The notes under the pieces: generated by a model
The model's database searches: none
What the model saw: the letters and a program-made list of their open reading frames with translations, nothing else
Told to the model about the DNA's origin: nothing
Source: Acidobacteriota bacterium
Lineage (GTDB): Bacteria; Acidobacteriota; Thermoanaerobaculia; Gp7-AA8
Length of the DNA: 64,000 nucleotides
Direction of reading: 5' to 3'
Assembly (NCBI GenBank): GCA_021781455.1
Contig: JAJXWV010000033.1
Location: forward strand, 124,001-188,000
Program-made: the position numbers and the translations under genes
In this document: one piece after another, positions 660-30,900 of the stretch
Layout of the letters: each line of letters starts with the position of its first letter
Position numbering within the stretch: position 1 is the stretch's first letter

Positions 660-847
660 TCTTGCAAAAACACCTCATTTGATACATAGTTAGCGGCAAG
701 ACGAATCCGAATCTGCTCTTTAGAGCGGCTCTGCACGGGAGCGAACCCGGCAGTGTCCGATCGAAACTCAGAAGACGCTGCGCGCGACGGATCCGACGCA
801 AAAGGGGAGCCGGCGGGCGTTAACGGGTGTGGTTATTGGGAGGCTTT

Positions 848-2347
848 ATGCGCGTGTTTCCTCGGGTCGCTCTCGCGGTCATCGTTCTGCTGACCGCGCC
901 CATGCTGCTGGCGAATCACTTCCAGTCGGACTGTCCGCTCACTCTTGTGGCGACCGACCCGCCTGCGTCGAATTTCGCGCTCTCGCCGCACGGCATCTTC
1001 CGCTCGGGCTCACAGGTGTTTGCCTTGCGCGGACAGACGCTGACCACCTACGCCCTGAACGACGTTGGTGATCTTCAAGTCGCGAGACAGGACTTCATCG
1101 GCTCGCTCGGAGCACGGGAAACCAACGGCGGAGTTGCCTTCAGCGCCGGATACCTCTTCCTGAGCAGCGAGGCCGGTCTGGAGATCTACGATCTGCGCGG
1201 CGTTCGCCCGGGCGGCAACGCGCCGTTGCTCGTCTCGCGCACCGCCGACCTGCATTACCGCCGGCTCGCCGTCAACGGGAACATCCTGGCCGCGCTCTAC
1301 CCGGCGAGCGATCTTCCCTGTTATCCGAACAGCTTCAGCTGCGTCACGAGCATCGACCTCTTCGACATCACCAACCTGGCCGCACCCGTGCGCGTCGGGT
1401 CGATCAGCACGGCGACCGACCTCGCTCGGGATCTAGGCGGCTTCAACGACATCGCCTTCAACTTCGGTTATCTGGTGGCGGTCGGAACCAACGGCTGGGC
1501 GTCGTTCAACGTGTCGAACCCGGCGCTGCCGTTCCGCATCGGCATCGTCTCGCGGGCGGGGACATTCCTGGTCAGCAACGGGACCAACCTGGTCGGAGTC
1601 GGCAACCGCGATTCCGTCCTCGTCTACAACTTCGGCACCGACGGACGGTTCACGCCGGTGTTCCTCTACACGATCTCGCAGTCGCTGACGATCGGCCGCT
1701 CGAACGCGATTGCATTCCATCCTGAGGCCTCCTTCGACGAATCGGGCAGCCGGCTCGTCACCATGGTCGACGAGATCAACCCGCTCACCCTGCAGCCGGC
1801 GCGGACCATCGCCTTCGACGTCTTCGACTTCAGCACGCCGATGTACGAAGGCACCGATCCACGCCTGTATGAGAGCGTTTCGATGACGACCGGCGACGAA
1901 GTGAAATGGGATCCAACGTCCGTCGGGCCGTATGTCTACACCGTGGGTGAGCTCACCGGTCTCCAGAGCTGGGGCGCCTGCGAGCAGATTGCCGGAAAGA
2001 TCGAGCTCAATTCGGTAACGCAGCTCAGCTGCAACGGCGCCGAGATCCACGGCTGGGTGACGGGAACGGAGAAGATCGCCAATGTGGAGCTGTTCCTCGA
2101 CGCCGGATCGCTCGGCTCGGCATCGCTCTCGGGCGTGCCCCGAACCGACGTCAGCTCGCGGACCCCTGCCCTGACGTGGCGCATCAACGTCAACCTCGAC
2201 CAGACCGCGCGCGGTGATCACACACTCCGTGCGGTGGGCACCGACTCTCTCGGAAACCGGCGGCAGTTCGCCAGCCAGCGCGTCTTCTTCCCGGGACCGG
2301 GCCAGAACTGCACGCAGCGACGCCGGCAGTCGGCGATCCACTTCTAG
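848..2347 (+). CDS. Secreted LVIVD/beta-propeller-like protein
   Basis: A protein of 499 residues. The ATG at 848 is chosen because GGGAGG lies at 838-843 and a signal peptide follows at once (MRVFPRVALAVIVLLTAPML). Residues of about 60-370 contain repeated short strands with patterns such as LEIYDLRGV, IDLFDITNL, ASFNVSNP and VYNFGTD. These resemble LVIVD-type propeller blades found in secreted bacterial proteins. A C-terminal part of about 110 residues (IELNSVTQLSCNGAEIHGWV onward) looks like an Ig-like beta-sandwich (VELFLDAG, HTLRAVGTDSLGN). Export to the periplasm or cell surface is inferred. No catalytic motif is recognised, so no function is assigned. It appears monocistronic and converges on pyrF. 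Confidence 0.7.
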   Translation: MRVFPRVALAVIVLLTAPMLLANHFQSDCPLTLVATDPPASNFALSPHGIFRSGSQVFALRGQTLTTYALNDVGDLQVARQDFIGSLGARETNGGVAFSAGYLFLSSEAGLEIYDLRGVRPGGNAPLLVSRTADLHYRRLAVNGNILAALYPASDLPCYPNSFSCVTSIDLFDITNLAAPVRVGSISTATDLARDLGGFNDIAFNFGYLVAVGTNGWASFNVSNPALPFRIGIVSRAGTFLVSNGTNLVGVGNRDSVLVYNFGTDGRFTPVFLYTISQSLTIGRSNAIAFHPEASFDESGSRLVTMVDEINPLTLQPARTIAFDVFDFSTPMYEGTDPRLYESVSMTTGDEVKWDPTSVGPYVYTVGELTGLQSWGACEQIAGKIELNSVTQLSCNGAEIHGWVTGTEKIANVELFLDAGSLGSASLSGVPRTDVSSRTPALTWRINVNLDQTARGDHTLRAVGTDSLGNRRQFASQRVFFPGPGQNCTQRRRQSAIHF

Positions 2348-2370: not shown

Positions 2371-2396
2371 AAGGGGCCGGCGATCAGCCGGCCCTT
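2371..2396. terminator. Bidirectional hairpin between convergent genes
   Basis: Arms AAGGGGCCGGC and GCCGGCCCTT pair with one bulged G around a 5-base loop. T-rich sequence (CTTTCCATTTCC) follows on the plus strand. The pyrF stop codon (2386-2384) lies in the loop, so the hairpin would serve both convergent genes. Confidence 0.6.
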
Positions 2397-3085
2397 TCCA
2401 TTTCCTCCACGATTCGCATCGCGGCATCCCGGCGTGATGCGGCAGCGGTGATCGGGCGCCCGACCACGACATAGTCGGCTCCGGCGGCAATGGCCTCGGC
2501 CGGCGTGAGCGTGCGCTTCTGGTCGTCGGCGCCGGAACCGGCGGGGCGGATTCCCGGGGTGATGATCACGAAATCCCCGCCGCATGCCTCACGAATCGCA
2601 CGGATTTCGCGGGGCGAGCTCACCACGCCTCGCAACCCGGCTGCGCGTGCCAGCAGCGCCAGCCGGACTGCGCTCTCGAGCGGGGAGTGCGCCCATCCGA
2701 TCTGTTCGATCTCTGCTGCGTCGAGACTGGTCAGGATCGTCACGCCGAGGACCACCGAAGTCCCGGCCGATTGCGCCGCGGCCCGAAGCATGGCCTCTCC
2801 GCCCGACGCGTGCACGGTCAGCATCGAGGCGCCGTGGGAGACTCCTTCGGCCACCGCGCGGCCGGCCGTATTGGGAATGTCGTGGATTTTCAGGTCGAGG
2901 AAGACGCGCTCGCCGCGGCCGACGATTTCCCTCACGATCCCCGGCCCTTGCGCGACGAAGGCCTGCAGCCCGATCTTGAAAATTCCGGCCGCGCCCCGCA
3001 GCTCGTCGATGAGTTTCAGGATCTCCTCGCGGGAGGAGAGGTCGACCGCGACCACCAGGCGGTCACGCGCTTGCATTTCCTCCAT
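2384..3085 (-). CDS. pyrF: Orotidine 5'-phosphate decarboxylase
   Basis: A TIM-barrel enzyme of 233 residues that converts OMP to UMP in the last step of de novo pyrimidine synthesis. Visible signatures are the N-terminal VAVDLSS, the catalytic D-x-K-x-x-D stretch DLKIHDIPNT, the phosphate-binding ITPGIRP and the C-terminal YVVVGRPIT. The length is normal for the short bacterial family. The start is taken at ATG 3085; a second in-frame ATG lies nine bases downstream (3076) behind GGAGGAA but with almost no spacing. The gene is alone and diverges from polX. The 100 bases between them are mostly a palindromic heptamer array, so its promoter must be in or overlap that array. Confidence 0.95.
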   Translation of the reverse strand: MEEMQARDRLVVAVDLSSREEILKLIDELRGAAGIFKIGLQAFVAQGPGIVREIVGRGERVFLDLKIHDIPNTAGRAVAEGVSHGASMLTVHASGGEAMLRAAAQSAGTSVVLGVTILTSLDAAEIEQIGWAHSPLESAVRLALLARAAGLRGVVSSPREIRAIREACGGDFVIITPGIRPAGSGADDQKRTLTPAEAIAAGADYVVVGRPITAAASRRDAAMRIVEEMERAG

Positions 3086-3103
3086 GATAGGACATGTGGA
3101 GAC

Positions 3104-3178
3104 GAGTCCTGAGTGCTGAGTCCTGAGCCCTGAGTTACAAGCCTCAGCACTCAGGCTCAGCACTCAGGACTCAGGACT
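3104..3178. repeat. Palindromic heptamer array, CTGAGTC family (copy A)
   Basis: The left arm (3104-3135) repeats CTGAGTC/CTGAGTG-type heptamers and the right arm (3143-3178) is its reverse complement (CTCAGCA, CTCAGGA units), so the array could fold into a long hairpin. It fills the divergent pyrF/polX interval and ends 8 bases before the polX ATG, so it is not a terminator here. AGGA in the last right-arm units sits at ribosome-binding distance from that ATG. Confidence 0.85.
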
Positions 3179-3185
3179 ATGGACT

Positions 3186-4928
3186 ATGGACAAGTGGACA
3201 GTCGCACGTGCGCTCCGGGAAATCGCGAGCTACATCGAGCTGAGTGAGCCGAATCCCTTCAAGGCGCGGGCATTCGAAAGCGCGGCGCGGCGAATCGAGT
3301 CGCTCGATCGCTCCGTCGACGATCTTGTCGCCACGGGCGGTCTCCATTCCACTCCCGGGATCGGCAGGTCGATCGGCCCGATCGTGGCCGACCTGGTGAC
3401 GAAGGGACACTCCGCGTACCTCGACGAGCTCCGATCGCGGTACCCGCCCGGCATCTTCGAGCTGCTTCGCGTTCCCGCTCTGGGGCTGAAGAAGATCGGA
3501 GTCCTCTATTCGGAGCTCGGCATCGCCAGCCTCGATGAGCTCGAGGCCGCGGCACAGGCGGGCCGTGTGGCCGGACTGGCGGGATTCGGCGCGAAGACGC
3601 AGAAGAAGATTCTCGACGGCATCGCGACCGCGCGCCGCCGCTCTTCGCAGTTCCTCCTTTCCTTCGGCCTCGAGGTCGGTGAATCACTTCGCGGGCGCCT
3701 GGCGCAGATTGACGCCATCGAGGACGCGATCGTTTCCGGCAGCGTGCGGCGACGGCTGGAGATCGTCGATTCAGTTGATATCGTGGTGGCGACCGGCGAT
3801 TCCGTACGCGCAATCGCAGAAGTGGAGAAACGCGGGCTCCTGGACCGTCTCGAACAGGATGGCTGGACTATGCTGCGCGGCTTCGGCCGCGATGAGATTC
3901 CGGTCTCACTCCACCTGACTGCGCCCGCCGATTGCGGCGCGGCTCTGGTCGTCACGACCGGTTCCGCAGACTTCGTCGAAGCCTTCGCCTCCACGATCGC
4001 GAAGAACGGATTCGAGCTCCGACATCGAGAGCTTTTCCACAACGGACGTCACATCAGGAGTGAGAACGAGAGCGCCCTGTTCGAACGCGTGGCAGTTCCG
4101 TTCGTCGATCCCGAGCTGCGGGAAAGCGGGGATGTGCTGAGGCGAAAGAAGAGAGTCCGGCTCGTCGAGCCCGCGGACCTGAAGGGCACCTTCCATGTGC
4201 ACACCACGTTTTCCGACGGCCGCAACTCGGTTGCGGAGATGCTCTCGGCCGCGCGCGACCGCGGTTTCGACTACGTCGGCATCTCCGATCACTCGCCGAA
4301 CGCGTTCTACGCAAACGGTGTGACCGTCGACGATCTGACGGGACAGCACGCCGAGATCGACGCTCAGCGCGCCCTCGTCGCGCCGATGCGCGTCTTCCGC
4401 GGAACCGAAGCCGACATCCTCGACGACGGCACGATCGACTACGGCCACGCCACGCTGCCGAGGTTCGACTTCGTCGTCGCCTCGATCCATTCGCGATTCG
4501 CCATGGATCGTGAGGCCATGACGGCGCGCATGCTTCGCGCTCTCGACGACCCCTTCGTGACCATTCTCGGCCACCTCACCGGACGTCTCCTCCTCGGTCG
4601 CACCGGCTATGCGATCGATTTCGACCGCGTCTTCGACCGCGCCGCCGAGCGCGGCGTCATGATCGAGATCAACGGCAATCCCCACCGTCTCGAGCTCGAC
4701 TGGAGGCTGGCCGGACGCGCCATCGATCGTGGTGTGCTGCTCTGCATCAACCCCGACGCCCACTCCATCGCCGAGCTGTCGCACGTCATCAGCGGCGTGT
4801 GGCTGGCCCGAAAGGCCGGCCTCTCTGCGAAGCACATCTTCAACACACGTCCGGTCGATGAGGTCGCGGACTATCTCGAAAAGCGCCGGCAGAAGGCAAT
4901 GGAAAGAGTACTGAGTGCTGAGTGCTGA
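3186..4928 (+). CDS. polX: PolX-family protein: degenerate polymerase, intact PHP nuclease
   Basis: A protein of 580 residues with the bacterial PolX layout: helix-hairpin-helix region (about 1-150; TPGIG at 56-60), Pol beta-like palm (about 155-315), and a C-terminal PHP domain (about 333-570). The PHP metal motifs are present: H337-x-H339, SDG, ISDHS, GTEADIL, ASIHS, GHLTGR and NPDAHS. These act as the Mn-dependent 3'-5' exonuclease/AP-endonuclease part in base excision repair. The polymerase motif is altered: family GSYRRG-x-GDID reads GSVRRR (185-190) and DSVD (195-198), which replaces the first catalytic Asp by Ser196, and the third Asp (family VDL) is Ser241. Polymerase activity is therefore doubtful (inference). 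The last codons and stop are made from repeat sequence. Confidence 0.9.
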   Translation: MDKWTVARALREIASYIELSEPNPFKARAFESAARRIESLDRSVDDLVATGGLHSTPGIGRSIGPIVADLVTKGHSAYLDELRSRYPPGIFELLRVPALGLKKIGVLYSELGIASLDELEAAAQAGRVAGLAGFGAKTQKKILDGIATARRRSSQFLLSFGLEVGESLRGRLAQIDAIEDAIVSGSVRRRLEIVDSVDIVVATGDSVRAIAEVEKRGLLDRLEQDGWTMLRGFGRDEIPVSLHLTAPADCGAALVVTTGSADFVEAFASTIAKNGFELRHRELFHNGRHIRSENESALFERVAVPFVDPELRESGDVLRRKKRVRLVEPADLKGTFHVHTTFSDGRNSVAEMLSAARDRGFDYVGISDHSPNAFYANGVTVDDLTGQHAEIDAQRALVAPMRVFRGTEADILDDGTIDYGHATLPRFDFVVASIHSRFAMDREAMTARMLRALDDPFVTILGHLTGRLLLGRTGYAIDFDRVFDRAAERGVMIEINGNPHRLELDWRLAGRAIDRGVLLCINPDAHSIAELSHVISGVWLARKAGLSAKHIFNTRPVDEVADYLEKRRQKAMERVLSAEC

Positions 4929-5059: not shown

Positions 5060-5734
5060 TTACTTGCGCGCCGCCAGGACGATGACGAGAGCGTTCTCGC
5101 CTTTCTTCGTCGTCACGAAGATGTAGGTTTGACCGACTTTGAGATTGAGCGTGGTTTTGTACAGATCCTTCGGTGGCCGATCCTTCTTCGCCGGATCGAG
5201 GCGGCTGACCCGCAGGTCGTTCACGCTGATGGTCTTCGACGCCGGATCGTAATCACCGAACTTGAAGTCAGCGCGATAGCCGTTGGCCATCTCCACCGCC
5301 GCTGATTCGCCTTCGTGTCCTTCGATCTCGACCTGTCCCAGGCTTTCCGCCGCAGTGAAGCCGATCATGGCCAGCTTCGGAGCGAGATCGCGCACTTCCT
5401 CGGGTACTCGTGCTGTTCCATGTCCGGCCATGACCAGTCTGATCGAGAGCTTCAACGGCCGCGGGGCCGTATCGAACTCGCCGAGCGCTGCAGCCACTGC
5501 CGCCAGATTGGCGGGCCTGTCCGTCACTGTCAGCGCATTGTTGGATGGCTGCATCGACACCGAGCCTTCGGGGCTTAGCAGCGGCTTGATGACCGCAGCG
5601 GCTCGGTCGACCGCTTTGTACTTGACCTGGAACGTCCGGGCCGGAAGCGCTTTCGCGGCCTCGGCAGCCGGTTCCGCAACCGCCGCACCCGTAGTCAGCG
5701 TCGCGAGGAGCATCAGGAGAAGAAGTCGTTTCAT
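5060..5734 (-). CDS. Exported secretin-N-like domain protein
   Basis: A protein of 224 residues with an N-terminal signal peptide (MKRLLLLMLLATLTTGAAVA). Residues of about 30-105 read FQVKYKAVDRAAAVIKPLLS...NNALTVTDRPANLAAVAAAL, the pattern of the small secretin/NolW ring-forming domain: a beta-alpha-beta module followed by a D-x-P-x-N-hydrophobic segment. The remaining ~110 residues form a beta-rich domain without recognised motifs. There is no secretin barrel, so this is a periplasmic stand-alone ring-like domain. Its ATG overlaps the anti-sigma stop by 4 bases (ATGA), making it the third gene of a sigma/anti-sigma operon and probably co-translated. Function is unknown; a sensor or scaffold under the ECF factor is a guess. 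Confidence 0.65.
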   Translation of the reverse strand: MKRLLLLMLLATLTTGAAVAEPAAEAAKALPARTFQVKYKAVDRAAAVIKPLLSPEGSVSMQPSNNALTVTDRPANLAAVAAALGEFDTAPRPLKLSIRLVMAGHGTARVPEEVRDLAPKLAMIGFTAAESLGQVEIEGHEGESAAVEMANGYRADFKFGDYDPASKTISVNDLRVSRLDPAKKDRPPKDLYKTTLNLKVGQTYIFVTTKKGENALVIVLAARK

Positions 5735-6258
5735 AAGTCCGCCGGCAGGTTCTCGTCGACGATCAAGACGACCTGCGTGTCGCTGGCCCCTTCGTTCGGC
5801 ATCTCGACGATCGTTGCATTTGCTGAGGAATACGACTGAACGACGGGCTTCGTCGTCAGCGGAGTCCGAATGATCGCGCGACGGACGGGTCGGCTCATGG
5901 CCGCCATCTGCGATGGATGCGTCGCCTGGCTACGCTCGATCTGGTAGACGATGCCGGCACCGGTGATCCCGAGCGCCAGCGTCGCCGCGATCGCGAGCTT
6001 GCGCGACCACGCCATCTCCGTGTGGCCGGCCACGGTTCCCGCGGCATCCCGCAGATGAACCACGTGCATGACGTCGGCGACAAAGGCATCGACGCCGCCC
6101 GGTGGCACCATCTCCTCGCCGCCCAGAGCCCGGAAGATCACGTCGGCGTCGATGTGTGCCGCGAAATCGAGGCAGGCATCGCACGTCCTCACGTGCTGCA
6201 ACAGCTCGGGATCACTGGTCCCGGCGTGGAATGCGGCTCGAAATTCGGTGCAGCTCAT
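5731..6258 (-). CDS. Zinc-finger anti-sigma factor, single-pass membrane protein
   Basis: A protein of 175 residues. The N-terminus has the zf-HC2 anti-sigma zinc motif H-x3-C-x2-C within LLQHVRTCDACLDF. A hydrophobic segment (KLAIAATLALGITGAGIVYQ) around residues 88-107 would place the zinc domain in the cytoplasm and about 65 C-terminal residues outside. It is expected to bind and hold the ECF sigma factor encoded immediately upstream. The ATG at 6258 overlaps the sigma stop as ATGA and is preceded by GGAGGG at good spacing; a second in-frame ATG at 6270 would overlap more. The gene is translationally coupled on both sides. Confidence 0.8.
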   Translation of the reverse strand: MSCTEFRAAFHAGTSDPELLQHVRTCDACLDFAAHIDADVIFRALGGEEMVPPGGVDAFVADVMHVVHLRDAAGTVAGHTEMAWSRKLAIAATLALGITGAGIVYQIERSQATHPSQMAAMSRPVRRAIIRTPLTTKPVVQSYSSANATIVEMPNEGASDTQVVLIVDENLPADL

Positions 6259-6869
6259 TCGGCCCTCCACAGCTGCGCATATTCGGGATAGCGCTTCTGC
6301 AACTGCTGCTGCATCAGCTTGCGCGCGTTGAACAGGTGATTGCGAACGGTCGACTCACGGCAGCCGAGGATCTTCGCGATCTCGGCGGATGGCAGGTCTT
6401 CCATCTGGTTCATGACGAAGATCGTCTTCTGCTTCGGCGAGAGGACCACCGAGACGGCCTCGAAGACGGCCTCGACTTCCTTTCGCTGCACGATCACGGA
6501 CTGCTCGGCGTCAGAAGAGGTCTTGACGAGGCGCAGGTTCGAGTTCACGGCGTTCTCGCGGGACTGCTTGTTCCTCATGTAATCGATGGCCACGTTCGTG
6601 ACCATGCGGTACAACCACGTATCGAACGCGTATTGCGGATCGTATTTCTCGAGGTTCTCCCACAGCTTGAGGAACACCAGCTGCGAGATGTCCTTGGCGT
6701 CCTCGGCGTTTCCGATGATCCGGTAGCAGACCGCGTAGACCTTCGAGGTCTTCCGGCGGACGAGCAGCTCGAAGGCGCGGTCGTCCCCCTGCCGGATCGT
6801 CTGGACCAGTTCGCGGTCGTCAGGCTCAGCTGATTGAGTCGGGATCATCAGACGAAGTTCCGCGGGCAT
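6255..6869 (-). CDS. ECF-type RNA polymerase sigma factor
   Basis: A protein of 204 residues (197 if the ATG at 6848 is used). Region 2 is clear: FELLVRRKTSKVYAVCYRI, then DAKDISQLVFLKLWENLEKY and FDTWLYRMVTNVAIDYMR for -10 recognition. A linker of about 25 residues is followed by region 4, with LSPKQKTIFVMNQMEDLPSAEI and the helix-turn-helix ILGCRESTVRNHLFNAR for -35 binding. It heads a three-gene operon with a zinc anti-sigma factor and an exported secretin-like protein, a standard arrangement for envelope-stress or extracellular signals. The inducing signal cannot be read from the sequence. It diverges from purD. Confidence 0.92.
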   Translation of the reverse strand: MPAELRLMIPTQSAEPDDRELVQTIRQGDDRAFELLVRRKTSKVYAVCYRIIGNAEDAKDISQLVFLKLWENLEKYDPQYAFDTWLYRMVTNVAIDYMRNKQSRENAVNSNLRLVKTSSDAEQSVIVQRKEVEAVFEAVSVVLSPKQKTIFVMNQMEDLPSAEIAKILGCRESTVRNHLFNARKLMQQQLQKRYPEYAQLWRAE

Positions 6870-6991: not shown

Positions 6992-8278
6992 ATGCGCGTT
7001 CTGGTAGTCGGCCAGGGTGGTCGCGAGCACGCCCTCTGCTGGAAGCTCAAGCAGTCACCCCTCGTCCGGGAGATCTACGCGGCACCGGGCAATGCTGGAA
7101 TCGCCTCCATCGCCGACTGCGTCCCGATCGGCGTCGCCGACATCATCGAATTGGCCGATTTCGCCGACAAGCTCAAGATCGACCTCACGATTGTGGGCCC
7201 GGAGCTGCCGCTTACCCTGGGAATCGTGGACGAATTCCAGAAGCGCGGCCTTTGTATTTTCGGACCGACCCGCCTCGCCGCAGAGCTCGAGGGATCGAAG
7301 GTGTTCTCGAAGGAGTTCATGCGGAAGTACAACGTCCCGACCGCCGAGGCGATCGCCTGTACCTCCGCCGACGAAGCGCGTGACGCGCTGAAGCGGATGA
7401 AGTATCCAGCCGTCATCAAGGTCGACGGACTGGCCGCCGGCAAGGGCGTCGTCATCGTGCAGTCGAAGGCCGAAGCGGACGAGTACCTGCAGATGGTGTT
7501 CGACGACAAGAAGTTCGGCAACGCGGCCGATCGGATCCTGATCGAGGAATTCCTCACCGGTGAGGAGGTCTCGTTCCTGGTACTCAGCGACGGAAAGCGG
7601 GTGGCGCCTCTCGCCCCCGCGAAGGACTACAAGAAGGCGCTCGACGGCGAGACGGGTCCGAACACGGGGGGAATGGGAGCGCATTCGCCGGCGGTGGTGC
7701 TGAGCGGCGAGACGGCCGCGGTGGTGATGAAGTCGATCGTCATGCCGACGATCCAGGGCATGGCGTCCGAGGGTCGAATGTACAGCGGGGTCCTGTACAT
7801 CGGCCTGATGCTGACCGCCGACGGTCCGAAGGTGCTCGAGTACAACTGCCGCTTCGGCGATCCGGAGACCCAGGTGCAGATGCTCCGGCTCGAAGACGAT
7901 CTCGCGGACGTCTGCCTGAAAGTGGCCCAGGGAAACCTCGGCGACACCAAGCTGACCTGGCGCAAGGAAGCCGCGGCGTGCGTCGTAGTCGCGGTGGACG
8001 GCTACCCCGACGAGTATCCGAAGGGACAGGAAGTCGAGATCGACCCGATCAGCGACGACGCCGTGGTGGTGTTCCATGCGGGGACGGTTCGCCGCGGCGC
8101 CAAGATCATCAACGTGGCAGGCCGGGTCATCAACGTCTGCGCCCGGGCGGCGACGTTGTCCGAAGCACTCGCGAAAGTGTACGAAGCCGTCCCGAAGATC
8201 CGCTTTGCCGGCGCTCGCTATCGCCACGACATCGGCTGGCGCGCCCTCGAGCAGCGCAAGCAGGCCGCCGCGGAATAG
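6992..8278 (+). CDS. purD: Phosphoribosylamine-glycine ligase (GARS)
   Basis: A protein of 428 residues, the usual GARS length. It joins glycine to 5-phosphoribosylamine with ATP in the second step of purine synthesis. The N-terminal domain begins MRVLVVGQGGREHALCWKL and contains GPELPL. The ATP-grasp domain shows KVDGLAAGKGV, EEFLTGEEVS, NTGGMGAHSP and EYNCRFGDPETQ, which binds ATP and Mg. There is no Shine-Dalgarno sequence before the ATG, which fits the leaderless promoter proposed upstream. purE follows after 91 bases with its own -10-like box, so the two purine genes are adjacent but probably have separate promoters. Confidence 0.97.
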   Translation: MRVLVVGQGGREHALCWKLKQSPLVREIYAAPGNAGIASIADCVPIGVADIIELADFADKLKIDLTIVGPELPLTLGIVDEFQKRGLCIFGPTRLAAELEGSKVFSKEFMRKYNVPTAEAIACTSADEARDALKRMKYPAVIKVDGLAAGKGVVIVQSKAEADEYLQMVFDDKKFGNAADRILIEEFLTGEEVSFLVLSDGKRVAPLAPAKDYKKALDGETGPNTGGMGAHSPAVVLSGETAAVVMKSIVMPTIQGMASEGRMYSGVLYIGLMLTADGPKVLEYNCRFGDPETQVQMLRLEDDLADVCLKVAQGNLGDTKLTWRKEAAACVVVAVDGYPDEYPKGQEVEIDPISDDAVVVFHAGTVRRGAKIINVAGRVINVCARAATLSEALAKVYEAVPKIRFAGARYRHDIGWRALEQRKQAAAE

Positions 8279-9823: not shown

Positions 9824-10036
9824 GTCACTCTGACTCTGAGCCGGCGCAGCCGCGGGGTGGGTGGCTGGGTGGAGCGGCGGAGCGCGGCGAAGAGTCTCCA
9901 GATTGCACGATCGCGGTGAGCCTGCCATCACCCACGATCTGCTTCCGCCCAACCATCGTCCCGGTAAAAGATCCTGCGCCGCGCTTCACCGCTCCCGCCC
10001 ACTCACCACCCCCGCGGTTCCGCCGGCTCAGGATGA
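9824..10036. repeat. Inverted pair of a dispersed ~70-bp GC-rich repeat
   Basis: The left copy (9824-9900; GTCACTCTGA...GAGCCGGCGCAGCCGCGGGG...GCGGCGAAGAGTCTCC) and a reverse-complement copy (9969-10036, ending CCGGCTCAGGATGAC) face each other across about 70 bases. The same unit recurs at 21512-21645 and 37430-37500. The pair lies between convergent genes, and no gene is seen in 9805-10046. Confidence 0.8.
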
Positions 10037-10046
10037 CGGTGGCGCC

Positions 10047-11792
10047 CTACCGCACCTTGTACGACTCCGGATAAGTGAACGTCACCGTCGCTTTCGCCAC
10101 GCCGTACGGAATCTGCATCGTGAGATTCGGCGTCATGACGTAGAAGGGTCGCAGGTCGATCATGTTGCCGAGCAGGATGTTCCCGGAAGTCCCGCAGAGA
10201 TCGCCGTTGCGGATCACGTTCTCGATCGGACGGCGGGGCCGCATGGAAACGTAAACGCGAGAGATCTCGTCGCGCCACGCACCCTGCGGCTTCTGCGTGT
10301 ACGTCTTCGTGAACGACGGAATGGACAGATCTTCTTTGGCCAGCCGGCCGCTCGCATCGTAGGTGTACGCGATGGCCACGTTCCACTCCACGTGCGGCGC
10401 TCCTTCCGGCTGATAGCCGTCGTAGCCGCCGCGGATGGCCACCGCCGTCAGAACGTCGTTCGCGTACGAGTAGGTGGCATTCATCGAGATCAGATGATTG
10501 CAGGCTGCAGTGTTCTGGTAATCGACCTGCTGCTGCACGATGCGGTTGCCCGAATCGAAGGTGTAGTGCGACGCGTAGCGTTGCCCGTCCAGGAACAAGT
10601 CTTCCCGATCCAGCAGCCACGTGCCGTCCGTCGCCGAGTGCGCGCTGTAGCTCAGGATCTCGCCGGTGTTAGGCGCAAGGATCTTTTCCAGGTAACCGGT
10701 TCCCTGCACGTAGCGGATCTGGTTCCCCTGCTTGTCGCTCCAGCCCTGGATGATCTCGCCGGCGTAGCTCCAACCCTCCGCCTTACGCGCGTCCTGGATC
10801 GTCCGCTGGCGCCTGGGCGTGTAGCGAAGCGCGTCCAGCATCGTGCCGGGGAACAGGCACGGAAGGGAATCGTTCTTAGCGAAGCGGCCGTCGGCGTAGT
10901 ACGTCGCCCGTGTCGCGGAGGCGCCGTCGACGCACGGCCGGCTGTTCCAGATCGGCGAGCCCGTGAGATACGGGCCATGCCAGCAGCGCGGGCACCATGT
11001 CGAACCGATCGGAAGGCGAAGTCCGCAGAAGGGGCAGACGATCTTCGTCTTCATGTCGTCGATCTCGGATTCCAGCACCAGCATGCGCTGGTCGAAGCCG
11101 GCTTTGGCGCCCGGGTCGGTCTCCATCTCGCCGTAGTGGTGATACCGCTCGGAGGCTTTTTCCAGGTCGCCCATGGCCTCGAGAACGACCGCCTCGTTGT
11201 ACACGGCGGCAGGATCGGTCGGGCGTTGCTGCTCCGCCTGCTGGAATTGCCTGAGCGCCCCTTCCAGATCGTTCTTCCCGTACAGGAACCTTCCGCGATT
11301 GAAGAACTCGAGATAGTTCTCGTCGGCCTGGCGCTTCTTCTGCAGCTCGCGCTGAAACTCGAGCTCGAGCTCCAGCTTCGACACGAGCGGCCTTTCCGTT
11401 CCGACGGGAAACAACTGCAGATAGCGGTCGACCTTGGTCTGAGCCTCGGAATACCGGCCCGACTTCGCCAGCAGGACGGCCATGTCATACAGCACGCCGG
11501 GATTGTCCGGTTGCAGCGCGTCGGCTTTTGCGAACTGGTCGTATGCCGAGGCGTAGTCCTGCATCTCGAAGAACTTCCTGCCGAAGAAAACCGCCTTCGT
11601 GAACTCTTCCGCATTCGAAGGACCGGCAGGCGCAGCAGCAACCGGCGCAACCGGCGTCTGCGCGACCGCCGCCGACACCTGGGCCGGCGCCGGACTGGCG
11701 AGAGGCTGCTTGTCCGGCGAAAGCGGAATCTGTTGGGCCACCGCCGCGGCGGCGGTGAGGAACAGGGCGAGGGCAACGGTTCGTGTCTTCAT
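10047..11792 (-). CDS. Exported TPR protein with zinc ribbon and YD-like C-terminal half
   Basis: A protein of 581 residues from the ATG at 11792, which overlaps the upstream stop as ATGA. A signal peptide (MKTRTVALALFLTAAAAVAQ) and a Pro/Ala-rich spacer precede TPR helices (about 62-245; GRKFFEMQDYASAYDQFAKA, GVLYDMAVLL, GRFLYGKNDLEGALRQF). A four-Cys zinc ribbon follows (CPFC at 253-256, CPRC at 267-270). Residues 290-581 are beta-rich with YD-like phrases (YVQGTGYLEKIL, YTFDSGNRIVQQQ, IAYTYDASGRLAKE). This combination outside the cytoplasm is not one I can name. It is an operon partner of the preceding gene (11789-13165), and a role in envelope assembly is only a guess. Confidence 0.6.
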   Translation of the reverse strand: MKTRTVALALFLTAAAAVAQQIPLSPDKQPLASPAPAQVSAAVAQTPVAPVAAAPAGPSNAEEFTKAVFFGRKFFEMQDYASAYDQFAKADALQPDNPGVLYDMAVLLAKSGRYSEAQTKVDRYLQLFPVGTERPLVSKLELELEFQRELQKKRQADENYLEFFNRGRFLYGKNDLEGALRQFQQAEQQRPTDPAAVYNEAVVLEAMGDLEKASERYHHYGEMETDPGAKAGFDQRMLVLESEIDDMKTKIVCPFCGLRLPIGSTWCPRCWHGPYLTGSPIWNSRPCVDGASATRATYYADGRFAKNDSLPCLFPGTMLDALRYTPRRQRTIQDARKAEGWSYAGEIIQGWSDKQGNQIRYVQGTGYLEKILAPNTGEILSYSAHSATDGTWLLDREDLFLDGQRYASHYTFDSGNRIVQQQVDYQNTAACNHLISMNATYSYANDVLTAVAIRGGYDGYQPEGAPHVEWNVAIAYTYDASGRLAKEDLSIPSFTKTYTQKPQGAWRDEISRVYVSMRPRRPIENVIRNGDLCGTSGNILLGNMIDLRPFYVMTPNLTMQIPYGVAKATVTFTYPESYKVR

Positions 11793-13165
11793 TGCAGGAA
11801 GGAATCGACGATGGTCGTGAGCCACAACTGCTGGTCCTCGGTCGGTTGGCCGCTCGATAGCAGCACGTAGAGCGCCCGCCGCTTCTGCTGCTCGCTGTAC
11901 TTGCCCGCCGCGTCGCGAAGGACGTGCTCGACGTCCTCGTCGACTGCAGGGTCCGGCGGGAGGATCACGTCAGTGGCGTCTTTCGGTGCCCAGTGGCTCT
12001 TCATACCGTCACCAAACAGCCTGGAGACGAATTGAAGGCGCTCCTCCTCACTGTGCGCCGCGCGGGCGTTGGCCGCCAGGCGGCTCTTGGCGCCCGACAC
12101 CTCGATGAGAGCACGGAGATTCGACAGCAGCTGGATGCGCTGCATGCAGGCGTCATAGATCTTGGACTTCACCGCTTCGTCGGCGATGACGCTGCTGGCC
12201 TTGAGCACGCTTTGAATCCGCTGCGTCTCGTAAGCCACGAAGCTATCGGCCACGTCTTCGGCAGATTCTACGGACTGGGTGGACGCCGGCGCGGCGGCAG
12301 AGGCGGGTGGAGCGGGTGCGGGTTCGGCGGCCGGTGCGGGTAACACCGCGGGAGCAGTCGCAACGGTGGCGGCCGCAGCCGTTTCTGCCGGGGCCACGGC
12401 GGGCGCGGGACTCGGGACCGGCTGCGGTACGGTCTCCGCCGCTTTCGGCTCGGCGGCAACGGGAACTTCGGCAGCCGATTGAACCGGTGGGGGCGTCGCG
12501 GTCGACGTCGCGAGCGGCGCGGTCCCGCCGCCGGAAACGGCGTCGACCAGCGGCAGATCGAGATTGGCGATGGCAGGCTTGCCCGTTTCGATGGCCCGGG
12601 TCGACTTCAGGTCGGACGGGGAGTAAGTCGTCTGCACGACTGCACTCTGCGGGATCGGCACGAGCTTGGGGCCGCTGATGAGCGTCGACGGCGCGGAGAC
12701 GGGGAGTCCGACGTCACGAAAGACTTCCGAATCGGTGGGCAATTCAGCGCGGAGCATTTGTTCCCGGACGCGCTCCCGCACGTCCTCAGCCGCCCGGACT
12801 TGCGCGGTACGCTGGAGATCGGTCAAGTACCGCGGGTTGGCCTTGTCGATGGACATGTCCGCATGGCAGGTCCCGAAGCGATCCGGCTCGTACTGGTTTT
12901 GGCCGCGCACCTGCTTGAAGTAGTCGACCACGGCGAGGTTGCGCTTCATGGCCGCTTCGCGGGCCCGTTCGCACGCGCTCTGAGAAGCGAAATCGTTGAT
13001 GCCCCAGACATCGAGAAAGCCGCGCGTGTCCGGCCTGTACATCTGCACATGGAAATGAAACGGCTCCGTCGTGCGCGAAGCAGATGAGGGGCAGTCGAGC
13101 AATTGCCCCGACGCTGCGCTCGCCAGGAGAACTCCCATCGTCAGAAGCAGCCGGACCGGTTTCAT
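11789..13165 (-). CDS. Exported protein with Pro/Ala-rich linker, function unknown
   Basis: A protein of 458 residues. The ATG at 13165 begins a signal peptide (MKPVRLLLTMGVLLASAASG); the frame is open further upstream but lacks a plausible start. Residues of about 25-120 form a Cys-containing domain (FHVQMYRPDTRGFLDVWGIN, FGTCHADMSIDKANP). A low-complexity Pro/Ala/Val linker spans about 210-300. A helical C-terminal domain of about 140 residues follows (VADSFVAYETQRIQSVLKAS ... EEERLQFVSRLFGDGMKSHW). The gene is first of a two-gene operon with 4-base overlap and diverges from the Spy-like gene. I recognise no family; the two domains joined by a flexible linker suggest a spacer across the periplasm. 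Confidence 0.6.
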   Translation of the reverse strand: MKPVRLLLTMGVLLASAASGQLLDCPSSASRTTEPFHFHVQMYRPDTRGFLDVWGINDFASQSACERAREAAMKRNLAVVDYFKQVRGQNQYEPDRFGTCHADMSIDKANPRYLTDLQRTAQVRAAEDVRERVREQMLRAELPTDSEVFRDVGLPVSAPSTLISGPKLVPIPQSAVVQTTYSPSDLKSTRAIETGKPAIANLDLPLVDAVSGGGTAPLATSTATPPPVQSAAEVPVAAEPKAAETVPQPVPSPAPAVAPAETAAAATVATAPAVLPAPAAEPAPAPPASAAAPASTQSVESAEDVADSFVAYETQRIQSVLKASSVIADEAVKSKIYDACMQRIQLLSNLRALIEVSGAKSRLAANARAAHSEEERLQFVSRLFGDGMKSHWAPKDATDVILPPDPAVDEDVEHVLRDAAGKYSEQQKRRALYVLLSSGQPTEDQQLWLTTIVDSFLQ

Positions 13166-22680: not shown

Positions 22681-23030
22681 GGGGGCGCAACGGCTTCGAC
22701 GGGGACATGTCGGGGTCGCGGTTGCATGCCGAGCTGATTGACTCGTAAATCCGATCAACCTGAGTAGCTGCGAACAACAGCGAACTCGCACTCGCGGCCT
22801 AAAAAACCGCGACGCTCTACCGCTGGTCGCTCACGCCGGCGCGACGAGTGTCATTAAGGTGAGCTAAGGGTCCGGGCCCGCCTCGTCTCGGATCTCGAAA
22901 ATTTAGAGGCTGGCTTACTTCAGTCCCCGTTTTCCGGGCCGGAGCGAGCGAGATCAAAGGAAAACTAAGCATGTAGGAGCCAGGCTGCCACTGTTTTCGG
23001 ACGCGGGTTCAACTCCCGCCGCCTCCACCA
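22681..23030 (+). ncRNA. ssrA: Transfer-messenger RNA (tmRNA)
   Basis: A 350-nt RNA that rescues stalled ribosomes by trans-translation. The 5' end GGGGGCGCAACGGCTTCGAC and the 3' end with T arm GGGTTCAACTCCCGCC and acceptor GCCTCCACCA form the tRNA-like part; the 7-bp acceptor stem pairs GGGGGCG with CGCCTCC. The reading frame resumes at GCG (22770-22772), after TAGCT, and encodes the tag ANNSELALAA followed by TAA (22800-22802), the usual ALAA degradation signal. The CCA end is encoded. GACAAT at 22671-22676 could be its -10 box. An accessory island begins just after its 3' end. Confidence 0.97.
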
Positions 23031-24913: not shown

Positions 24914-27900
24914 ATGCATAGCGAGATCATGCCCATGGTCCGCCCGAGCGCTCTGTCGCGGTCGCGGCGGGTGTTCGCGGCTTCATCGTCCGCAGCACGG
25001 ATGTTTGTGGCGGCGGTCCTCGCCTGCCTCATCGCACCGCCGCTTCATGCGGATACGTGCAGCGCACAGGGCGGCCGGTTCGACTGGAACGCTCCGGCCG
25101 CGTGGTCGTGCACGGGGACGAATGGCAGCACCTACCCCGGCGAGAAGGGCATCGACATCGCAACGATGTCCGGGGATCTGCCCGTCATGGCGAACATCGT
25201 CGCGCCGACCCCGTTTCCGGTCACTTTTTCCACAGGCGGCCAGGGCGCAATCCTGGCCCTGCAGCCGAACGGGTCGCTCACCCTCGGGGAGGGAAGCGCC
25301 ATCGGCGCTCTCGACTCCATCAACATCGCGGGCGGAGCTCTGGTCATCGACACCGGAGCGCTCCTGCAGACTCAGGGACGCATCACTCTCGACAGCGGCA
25401 CACTGACGCTGAACTCGGATCTCGAGCTGGGAGTCGCGGAAGTTCCGTTCGCGTTCAACGGCGGCACGATCAGCGGCCCCGGAAACCTGACGATCGCATC
25501 CGGGATGCTGTTCACGGGAAGCGTCGGCGCAATGACGATCAGCGGCGCCACGATCAACGTTCTGGGGAGCGCGGACTACTCGGCCACGAGTCCGACCACA
25601 CTCTCGATCAACAGCGGCGGCCGCATCAGGGTCATCGGCCCGGGAGAGCTGTCGCTGAGCGGCACCGGAACGATCAACGCCGACGCTCTTTCGTCGATTG
25701 ACGTTCTCACCGGAGCAAACCTCTACGTCTACGCCAGCCCTGCGACGATCAATGCCACGGTCAACAACGAAGGAACCGTGACGTCGGATGCTCAGCTGCA
25801 GCTGAAGGGCGGCGGAAACCATTTCGGTCGGTTCGACGCCATCAACGCGGGCTCGATCCTCTTTTCCGGCACGCACAATTTCGGGGGAGGGACTTCGTTC
25901 ACGAACTCGACAGGTGCTCCTGCGTTTCAGTTCGACGGTGCCGCCTCGCAGTTCAACATCAACACCGGCTTCGTGAACATCCCCGGACTGAACTGGACGG
26001 GCGGAACGATCGGCGGCGGGAACACCCTCTCGCTCCTGACTTCGAACATCTTCGACGGGTCCGCGCTGGCGATCGGCAGCGGGACGACGATCCACATTCC
26101 GGCGGATGTGTCGGGCTCGCTGTCGCTCGGCACGTCGACGAATGTCGCCGGCCCGGGAGCTCTGGAGCTCGGCCTCGGCGCGACGATCACAGTGAACGGA
26201 AGCCCGAACGTCATCAGCGCACCCGTGACGATCGGAAGTCCGACGATCGTGTTCGGCAACTTCGGCGCCATCACCTTCAGCGGCGGCGGAACGATCAATT
26301 CCGGGACGTTTGCGACCACGGACCTGACCAACACATTCACGTTTGGCGGATCCTTTCTCGTCCACGCAGGGACGTTCCGGGGGCCGGGCGCTTTCTGCAT
26401 CAGTCCAGGCGGAGTGTTCACGATCGACAACATGAACGCACCGGTCGCCTTCGTCGGAACACCAGGTTCTTCGAGGCTCTACAACGCCGGCACGATCGCG
26501 TTTCTCCCGCCGGCAACGAGCGTCGACGTGAGCGGATTCGCGATCAGGAACGACCCGTCCGGCACCATCGACCTGCAGAACGACACGTCGCTGACTGCTG
26601 CGACACAGGCCGCAACGATTCTGAACGACGGGGGCGTCTTCGAAAAGACCGCTGGTTCACTGACGTCCTCAATCCAGCCCGCGTTCACGAATGGGAGCAC
26701 CGTGATCGTGAAGACGGGAACGCTGGATTTCACCAACGCCTACACGCAATCCGGAGGGACCACGATCCTCGCCGGCGGCACGCTGGCCATGCTCGGAGGA
26801 GCGGGCACCTTCACTCTGAACAGCGGTAACCTCGAGGGCACGGGAACCATTCAGGGAAAATTGGCGACGTACCCCGGAGGTGTCGTGTGGCCGGGTCTCA
26901 GGTCGCCGCTTTCACCCGGCAGTATCAGGGTGACCGGCGACTACGTGCAGAGCGGCGCATTGCAGGTCGACCTCGGCGGCACCGTTCCCGGTTCCGGCTA
27001 CGACGTTCTCAATGTCGACGGAAACGCGACGATCGGCGGAGCGCTGGGGATCACCTACATTTCGCCGTTTACGACCCCCAACGGCCAGGCCTACAGCGTG
27101 CTCACGAGCGCGAATCCGGTGAGCGGCACGTTCTCGGTCATCCATTATCCCGACCTATCGCCCGCGTGGAAGACGACCTACGCCGCGAACGCCGTGCAGA
27201 TCGCCATGACTCAGGCCGATCTGGCAATTGCGCATACGGCTGCGACGAGCGTCGCCAACGGCCAGGACATCGTCTACACGATCAACGTCACCAACAACGA
27301 TCCGACGCTGACGGCGACGAACCTGTCGATCTCGAACATGTTCACCGCAACATTCAAAGCCGTCTCCCCTTCGCCCTGCGTTACGAACGATCCGAACTGG
27401 ATCACGTGCTCCGTGGCGTCGCTCGCTCCCGGCGCGACTTACACGATCACTCTGACCCTGACGACGAGCGCCGTCGGCAGCGTCTCGAATCTGGCGGGCG
27501 TGAACGGCGCTGAGTTCGACCCGAACACCGCAAACAACGAATCGACGGCAACGGTCGAAGTCACACCGGCAGTCGATCTCGGCGTGACCCTCACCGACAC
27601 GCCTGATCCGGTCCTGGCCGGCGCGAATGTCACCTATACGATCGACGTCGCAAATGGCGGCCTCGACCCGAGCGCCACGGAAGATCTGCTGACGCTGACC
27701 CTGAACGACGGCACGATCGTCTCCGTCTCCAGCCCCTTCCCGTGCTCGAACACCACCACGAAGGCGATCTGTAAGATGCCCGCGATTCCGATTGGTGGCA
27801 ATGCGTCGATGACCATCGTCGCGACCGCCAGCACTGCCGCGGAAATGTCTCTCGACGCCACGGCAACGGATGCAAACGACACGAACCCGGCCAATAACGC

Positions 27901-30900
27901 CGCCTCTCAACGTACGACGATCACGCCGGCGGCCGACCTCGCCGTCTCGCAGAGCGCCTCACCGACGACGCTGTTCAACGGCAAGGGCAGCGTCGTCACC
28001 GTGACCGTGACGAACATCGGACCGTCGACGGCGACGAGCATCCCGCTGACCGATTTGTTCGGCGGACCGGTCACGATCAGCGGCGCCACGACTGCGGATG
28101 GAACGTGCCTCATCACAGGTCCGAAGGTCTCCTGCACGATTCTTTCGCTCGCCAGTGGCGCATCGGCCGTCGTCACGATCGACGTTCTGGCAGCCGGATC
28201 CGGCACAGTCACCAGCTCACCAGCGGTCCCGACATCCACTCCGCCGCTGAGCCAGCACGATCCGATTCCGGCGAACAACTCGGCGGTGCCTGTCTCGATC
28301 ACGGTGAATCCCGCGTCGGACCTCAGTATCGCAGTCACACCTCCGGCCTCGGTCTACGCAGGCAAGGACGGCGCGTTCTCCGTCGCAATCTACAACGCCG
28401 GTCCTGACGCCGCGGCGTCGTATGACGCGAGCCTCACGATCACAGGCGGAACCATCGTCAGTGCCACCGGCGCGATGACGTGCACCACGACCGCGACCTC
28501 CGCGGGCTGCTCCGGCTCCAGCCTCGCCGCAGGCGGTACCGCAACGGTGAGCATCGTCGCAACGGCGGACGCCGGCGCCTCACTCGCAATCGAAGGGACC
28601 GTCGCCGCGGCGAGTGATCCAAACGCGACCAACAACGGACCGGTTTCGACCAGCGTTGCGATCACCGCGAGCGCGGACGTGTCGGCTTCGCAATCCGCGC
28701 CCGCTTCCGTCTTTCACGGACAGAACGCCACGGTCACGGTGATCATCGGCAATACCGGGCCTTCCACGGCCACGAACGTGACCCTGACCGACGCGTTCAC
28801 CAACGGCTCATTCGTCTCGGCGACCGCCTCTCAAGGCACGTGCTCCGGCACCACGGCCGTCACCTGCGCGATCGGCACGCTCGCCTCCGGCGCGTCTGCC
28901 ACGGTCACCCTGGTCCTCACCGCGACCGGCGCCTCGCCGCTGACCAACAGCGCCAGCGCCATGGCAGCCGAGCACGATCCGCTGCCCTCCAACAACACGC
29001 CGGCTCCGCTCGCGGTCGCCGTCAACCCGAGCGCGGACGTGTCGGCTTCGCAATCCGCGCCCGCTTCCGTCTTTCACGGACAGAACGCCACGGTCACGGT
29101 GATCATCGGCAATACCGGGCCTTCCACGGCCACGAACGTGACCCTGACCGACGCGTTCACCAACGGCTCATTCGTCTCGGCGACCGCCTCTCAAGGCACG
29201 TGCTCCGGCACCACGGCCGTCACCTGCGCGATCGGCACGCTCGCCTCCGGCGCGTCTGCCACGGTCACCCTGGTCTTCACCGCGACCGGCGCCTCGCCGC
29301 TGACCAACAGCGCCAGCGCCGTGGCAGCCGAGCACGATCCGCTGCCCTCCAACAACACGCCGGCTCCGCTCGCGGTCGCCGTCAACCCGAGCGCGGACCT
29401 CTCCGTCACGCAGACCGGCCCTGCTGCGTTATTCGACGGCCAGAACGCTGTCCTGAAGATCGTCGTCACGAACCACGGCCCCTCGACTGCAACAAGCGTC
29501 GGAATCAGCGACAGCTACAGCGGCGGCACGTTCGGATCGGTGTCGTCGACCGGCGGGAGTTCGTGCAGCGGCACCCTCCCCGTCGCCTGCTCGATTTCGT
29601 CGCTCGCCGCCGGCGCGACCGAGACCATCACGCTCACGCTCACCGCCAATGTCCCCGGAACAATGTCCAACACCGTCTCTGCGACCTCGCCGATCTTCGA
29701 CGGCGATCCGGCGAACAACAACTCTTCGGCGACGGTGAAGGTCACGGCCACGGCTGATCTCGCGGTCAGCTGTACCGCGTCCCCGAATCCTGTGGACCCG
29801 GCTCGTGACACGACGATCACCGCGTCGATCAGGAATCTCGGTCCGTCGACAGCTGCGGACGTGAAATTCACGGACTCGTTCACCGGATCGACGTCCGCAT
29901 CGGTCGCTACCAGCCAGGGAACCTGTAGCCTATCGACGACGATCAACTGCTCGATCGGCACGCTCGCCCCGGGAGCGACGGCCCAAGTCACAATCGCGCT
30001 GCGCGCTGGCACCGTTGACATCCAGAACAGCGCCAGCGTCTCTGCGAGTGAGACCGATCCGAACGGCAACAACAATTCATCGACGCTGACGATCGCCTTG
30101 ACGCGCGCTGATGTATGGGTGAGCAAGAGCGGACCGGTATCGGCGTCGCCGGGAGACAGCGTCACCTACACCATCACCATCGGCAATGATGGCCCTTCGA
30201 CGTCGACGGCCATCAGCCTCACCGATCCAACGCCCGCGGGTCTGACGGCAGCTTCAGTCAGGGGCGCGTGCGTTCTGCTCCCTTGCTTGATTTCCCCGCT
30301 GCACGCAGGCGCCAACGCGACGATTTCCGCAACGTACACCGTCGCCACGGGCGGCGATGCTCCAGCGCTGATCACGAACACGGCCTCCGTGCTTGCCGAC
30401 AACGATCCGAGCTCATCGAACGACAGCTCCTCGGTCACGACGTCGCTGGCCTGCAAGACACAACCTCCGACGCCCGTCTCGCCCCTCACGGGCGAAGTCA
30501 TCGGCTCGCCGGTCACGTTCACCTGGACAGCGGTCGCGAACGCCACGGCGTATGAGGTCTACGTCACGCAGGGCACGACACTCTCTCTGGGAACGACTTC
30601 CGGGACATCGCTGACCGGATCGGTCGGCAATGGTCCTTTCTCCTGGTACGTCGTCGCCACGACATCGGATTGCGGGCCGATGACGTCCGCCAGCGTCAGT
30701 CCGAGCGCCTGCAACCGACCCGACACGCCGCTGGCCAGCGTGGTTGCGAACGCCGCTTCGGGACAGACCTACTCGGTGCAATGGGCTGCCGTCGACGGCG
30801 CGGGCAGCTACGAGGTTCAGGAAGCAGGCAGCGTCGACTTCACGGATGCCACGACGCAGGCCGTGACCGGCACGTCGCTTTCCTTCACCCACGCCGCCAC

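Follow-up and report, generated by a model that had tools for sequence, protein, structure and literature searches.

The polX gene of an Acidobacteriota soil bacterium, a member of a little-studied lineage, very probably encodes a noncanonical PolX, in which a polymerase scaffold that no longer properly binds either the two catalytic metals or dNTP is coupled to a working PHP nuclease, the most likely task of the protein being the trimming of 3' ends in break repair. The gene lies in a contiguous stretch of 64,000 nucleotides, hereafter the window. We regard the protein as an ordinary added member of the noncanonical group already published by Prostova in 2022 (PMC9226535). Its study widens that polymerase-dead group to take in every PolX of an entire Acidobacteriota family (16 of 16) and much of the class (45 of 80 alignment rows), and yields two small leads, namely a palm arginine pair that is invariant past the loss of catalysis and a natural co-absence of polX and NHEJ genes in one genus. 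Name-based annotation of such proteins would still say 'DNA polymerase X'.

Results

Architecture of the window's PolX

The gene encodes a full-length PolX of 580 residues (Table 1), and the bacterial domain set of 8-kDa domain, thumb, palm, fingers and PHP is found in this one chain. Pfam matches were obtained for HHH_8, DNA_pol_B_thumb and PHP, and the NCBI PolX model NF006375 spans residues 1-567 with 406.7 bits, narrowly missing its curated cut-off of 426. Searches with phmmer aligned residues 5-568 to T. thermophilus PolX (TtPolX; E 6e-84) and residues 7-568 to D. radiodurans PolX (E 4e-87); the closest solved structures, 2w9m from D. radiodurans and 3b0x/3au2 from T. thermophilus, are full-length matches. 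An AlphaFold model, for which 20 sequences of the class served as input, reached a mean pLDDT of 89.3 and a pTM of 0.73, and its top structural match was TtPolX 3au6 (Z 42.0, rmsd 3.8, 554 residues aligned). No second, canonical PolX was found in the window's genome.

Table 1 Features of the polX locus and of associated genes; plain coordinates are those of the window
Feature	Coordinates	Strand	Basis
pyrF, divergent conserved neighbour	2384..3163	-	NF001273; tblastn
polX, noncanonical X-family polymerase with PHP nuclease	3186..4928	+	NF006375, Pfam, 2w9m/3b0x matches, AlphaFold model
8-kDa N-terminal helix-hairpin-helix domain, aa 4-75	3195..3410	+	PF14716 (HHH_8), E 1.2e-10
GSVRRRLE palm motif, aa 185-192	3738..3761	+	alignment rows
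Ser196, at the catalytic Asp 1 position	3771..3773	+	alignment
Asp198, catalytic Asp 2, retained	3777..3779	+	alignment
Ser241, at the catalytic Asp 3 position	3906..3908	+	alignment
Degenerate dNTP-binding motif VTTGSADFV, aa 256-264	3951..3977	+	canonical consensus [YH]FTGSKEHN
PHP nuclease domain, about aa 336-568	4191..4889	+	PF02811, E 1.7e-9; 9/9 ligands, six DNA-contact positions
Secretin-like protein, putative anti-sigma factor and ECF sigma factor, conserved downstream	5060..6869	-	
purD, conserved outer locus flank	6992..8278	+	TIGR00877
NHEJ genes of the window's genome	L201 6477-7403, 7345-8286; L200 7019-7909; L202 3899-5824; L203 5682-6824; G000:C86:170238-170564		
Empty polX site, genus g4	L215 = G004:C101:11500-17500		
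Empty polX site, genus g4	L216 = G013:C118:1-5500		

The polymerase site is broken

An earlier note on this DNA had placed serines at two of the three catalytic aspartate positions and had proposed multiple alignment with characterised PolX proteins as the check; the alignment upholds serine at both. It comprised 156 PolX rows: 79 genomes of the class contributed 80, named records 74 and references two, six named rows that duplicated family members having been left out. With D or E scored as acidic, 82 rows were canonical and 74 noncanonical. Ser196 faces D198 of TtPolX, a position held by D in all 82 canonical rows, and Ser241 faces D243, at which the canonical rows have D in 81 cases and E in one; the retained Asp198 faces D200, again D in 82 of 82. 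The register is secure because the GS-x-RR-xx-E anchor aligns gap-free to TtPolX, with D195-S196-V197-D198 of the window's protein opposite G197-D198-L199-D200. The neighbouring D195 was considered as a shifted catalytic aspartate and ruled out, this being the Gly/Lys position of PolX (G in 47 and K in 30 of the 82 canonical rows).

The triad therefore reads S-D-S, which departs from the three acidic palm residues of canonical PolX and shows the partial triad loss of the noncanonical form. The dNTP pocket is likewise altered: the Y/H-F steric gate is replaced by V256-T257, the dNTP-site lysine by A261 and the asparagine by V264, giving the hydrophobic residue at the N279 equivalent and the loss of basic residue and steric gate that mark the noncanonical dNTP site. 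Neither the palm (67 residues) nor the fingers (63 residues) carries a deletion, both being canonical-like in length, and the protein belongs with the least degraded members of its family. Chance or sequencing error is excluded as the source of the altered triad, because all 16 PolX proteins of the family have altered triads.

The PHP nuclease site is intact

The same note had stated that every PHP metal motif is kept, and this is what we found: all nine ligands are present (H337, H339, D344, H369, E408, H435, H463, D524 and H526). Complete ligand sets occur in 73 of the 74 noncanonical rows, the one remaining row being an end-cut fragment. Mutagenesis of B. subtilis PolX identified six PHP DNA-contact positions needed for nuclease activity (PMC6616362), and the window's protein keeps all six as F438, R467, R472, N496, R501 and K543, equivalent to F440, R469, R474, N498, R503 and K545 of the B. 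subtilis protein.

Distribution and conservation

PolX is carried by 16 of the 18 genomes of the window's family, in one copy each, and the triad is broken in every case: S-D-S in the window, N-E-L in its genus mate and N-N-x in the other 14. Since every PolX triad of the family is broken, the noncanonical state is old and stable, and no recent mutation. Fingers cut to 44-48 residues are found in 12 of the 16 proteins. Of the 80 PolX rows of the whole class, 45 have the noncanonical state and 35 the canonical one. Mean identity within the family is 0.72 for the PHP domain and 0.63 for the 8-kDa/thumb region. The ratio of non-identity in palm and fingers to that in PHP ranges from 1.72 to 2.98 in six noncanonical families and from 0.88 to 1.48 in eight of nine canonical families, the ninth (f6, two rows) standing at 1.90; the higher ratio in noncanonical families indicates that their palm has been relieved of constraint and their PHP domain has not.

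Named records from the window's family are Acidobacteria or Acidobacteriota MAGs, one of them tagged Thermoanaerobaculia, and a single scan of viral contigs gave no confirmed relatives. Separately, genomes of families f4, f5 and f9 encode PHP-only proteins that closely resemble the PHP domain of PolX (E about 1e-50 to 1e-67) and match model positions about 315-558 only; in some of these genomes a complete PolX is encoded too. According to PMC12926913, PolX-like proteins devoid of the polymerase part are almost exclusively actinobacterial, and the PHP-only proteins seen here may broaden that set or may be PHP proteins of another kind.

Within the palm, R188 and R189 are invariant in all 74 noncanonical and all 82 canonical rows, and position 192 is E in 69 of the 74 noncanonical rows. 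Otherwise, across positions 155-313 of the noncanonical rows, only G185, E295 and the stretch 309-313 that leads to PHP are fixed to 95%. In the accessible part of PMC9226535, complete conservation (100%) of the second arginine is stated for canonical PolX only, and in Pol beta this residue (R183) interacts with the GS turn of the fingers beside the nucleotide. The R188/R189 pair may have a structural role or may be the mark of a surviving binding function.

Origin of the noncanonical state

A quick tree made without the palm and fingers columns, with 128 rows after 28 near-copies had been dropped from the 156, groups the window's family with noncanonical PolX of Bacteroidetes and D. radiodurans (SH-aLRT 89). 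It places the remaining noncanonical families of the class elsewhere, a separation that is not firm. In AU tests, a single clade of 38 noncanonical class rows (f3 left out) gave a p-AU of 0.793 and a likelihood better than that of the free tree, and a single clade of 53 noncanonical rows (c_L025, n_L056 and n_L098 left out) was not rejected either (p-AU 0.478). Several independent losses within the class, which corresponded to six state changes on that tree, were dropped as an explanation, since single clades were not rejected; for the same reason one ancient loss is possible.

The polX locus

By tblastn, pyrF adjoins polX in 16 of 16 family loci, and the window's gene order, pyrF-polX-secretin-like-anti-sigma-sigma-purD, recurs in each of the four long named loci of the family that were examined. 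The two genomes of genus g4 (G004 and G013) are without polX; pyrF, the three downstream genes and purD are all in place, with about 130 bases from the pyrF match to the match of the next gene.

Elsewhere in the window there is a tmRNA gene with the tag ANNSELALAA (22681-23030, + strand) and an open reading frame of 2633 residues (24914-32815, + strand) with nine DUF11 repeats and CARDB domains, which probably encodes a large surface or secreted protein. Long open frames were also seen at 9861-11870 (+), 10047-11825 (-) and 827-2347 (+); those at 827-2347 and 9861-11870 had no Pfam or NCBIfam matches, and some long frames in this GC-rich window are probably antisense shadows of genes.

NHEJ genes

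Three Ku genes are encoded in the window's genome. Its LigD functions are divided: one LigD unites ligase and polymerase but lacks a nuclease, and a further LigD-type polymerase and a LigD nuclease domain are each encoded separately. The whole set is scattered, and two of the Ku genes overlap in tandem. All 16 PolX-bearing genomes of the family have Ku and a LigD polymerase domain, and 14 of the 16 have a separate LigD nuclease domain. The two g4 genomes gave no match for Ku, LigD polymerase or LigD nuclease domain; this joint absence of polX and NHEJ genes represents one event in one genus.

Across 148 genomes of the class no association between PolX and Ku was found, Ku occurring in 39 of 85 genomes with PolX versus 35 of 63 without (Fisher p 0.32), and a class-wide tie of PolX to Ku is thus unsupported. 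For this test the canonical or noncanonical label was set by family; six genomes with PolX fragments only (G071, G073, G100, G102, G119 and G126) were counted as PolX genomes and have no triad row, and the other 79 account for the 80 triad rows. Ku was absent in all 22 genomes of f5 and f9 that have noncanonical PolX. The idea that PolX stands in for a missing LigD nuclease is weakened as well, given that such a nuclease is encoded separately and does not need PolX just as its replacement. End joining is a plausible setting for the window's PolX, in which its role is one that we only infer.

Discussion

The earlier note had predicted that DNA synthesis is lost and the PHP nuclease retained, a prediction supported by the lost triad and dNTP site, the intact PHP domain and the behaviour of assayed relatives. 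We infer both the lack of synthesis and the exonuclease activity from these relatives: PolX of D. radiodurans (triad AEE) and of D. gobiensis (ARE) had no polymerase activity and robust Mn-dependent 3'-5' exonuclease activity (PMC9226535). The evolutionary conversion of a polymerase into a nuclease that the note also suggested is no novelty and not peculiar to this gene, being an old, shared and published state.

In mechanistic terms, the 8-kDa/thumb/palm part would most likely dock the protein at gaps, nicks or breaks in DNA, whereupon the PHP metal centre would take off 3' nucleotides and blocked 3' ends in a Mn-dependent manner and might also cut abasic sites. Synthesis would be left to other polymerases, for example the LigD primase-polymerase domains of the same genome.

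It could be argued that some polymerisation persists, such as Mn2+-supported single-nucleotide gap filling through Asp198 with serine or water ligands, given that Asp198 and GS-x-RR are kept in a palm of full length, that serine could in principle hold a water-bridged metal and that an older report credited D. radiodurans PolX with synthesis (cited in PMC9226535). We consider this very improbable, because the dNTP-site residues have gone along with the aspartates and an acidic pair is not maintained in the family, where the genus mate reads N-E-L and the remaining members N-N-x. Moreover, according to PMC9226535, a single aspartate change, D203A, abolishes synthesis by B. subtilis PolX, and no synthesis was seen when D. 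radiodurans PolX was tested again in 2022, the earlier report being ascribed to contamination. That the gene is simply decaying, its polymerase half in transit to loss and without a selected function, is hardly credible: the clean loss of polX from one genus (two genomes) would fit, yet a full-length open reading frame persists at the same locus in 16 of the 18 family genomes, PHP and 8-kDa/thumb identities remain at the levels given above with invariant metal ligands, and the palm arginines R188 and R189 do not vary.

The conservation of those arginines invites a refinement that is compatible with a 3'-end trimmer, namely that the palm is kept as a non-catalytic sensor of nucleotides or DNA ends that regulates the PHP nuclease. 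R188, R189 and, in most noncanonical rows, E192 have outlasted the aspartates, the steric gate, the lysine and the asparagine, and the Pol beta R183 interaction with the GS turn of the fingers (PMC9226535) offers a precedent; the pair may, however, be purely structural, lying at a short helix, 185-188, that follows the first palm strand in the model, and its partner in the fingers is less well kept, with S260 in 38 of the 74 noncanonical rows. On balance we judge a sensor palm rather unlikely. It is tempting to speculate further that the family PolX is a dedicated NHEJ end-trimming subunit whose palm, as a non-catalytic arginine-pair sensor of nucleotides or DNA ends, gates the PHP domain. Such an arrangement strikes us as decidedly doubtful; if it were true, the joint absence of polX, Ku and LigD domains in g4 would be expected, polX being useless without the NHEJ machinery.

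Comparison with known systems

We return to the reading of the window's protein as a polymerase-dead, PHP-active PolX. The accessible part of PMC9226535 counts 809 sequences (27.5% of prokaryotic PolX) whose acidic triad is partly or wholly lost, with 302 triad variants among them; their PHP domain is intact, and deletions of palm or fingers occur in many members and are not required. Like these proteins, the window's PolX has a broken triad and dNTP site, an intact 8-kDa domain and PHP, and NHEJ genes alongside; unlike many of them, its palm and fingers are undeleted. The main noncanonical cluster is formed by Bacteroidetes and Deinococcus, with a few other phyla, Acidobacteria included, and the window's lineage is an Acidobacteriota family that receives no detailed treatment in the accessible part of that paper. 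None of the papers listed in our literature searches deals with the PolX of this family.

D. radiodurans PolX (2w9m), the best PDB sequence match, shares the complete PHP domain and the domain order with the window's protein; the two are 34% identical by structural alignment and differ in their triads (AEE against S-D-S) and in palm length (59 against 67 residues, by boundaries set in this analysis). The canonical PolX proteins of T. thermophilus and B. subtilis have the same fold over the whole length, but both still have their acidic triad and dNTP site and make DNA. For bacterial PolX generally, PMC12926913 confirms that conservation is stronger at the PHP site than at the polymerase site. 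PolX-like proteins without the polymerase region, as described in the same source, retain the PHP nuclease as the window's PolX does, whereas the latter keeps the entire polymerase scaffold.
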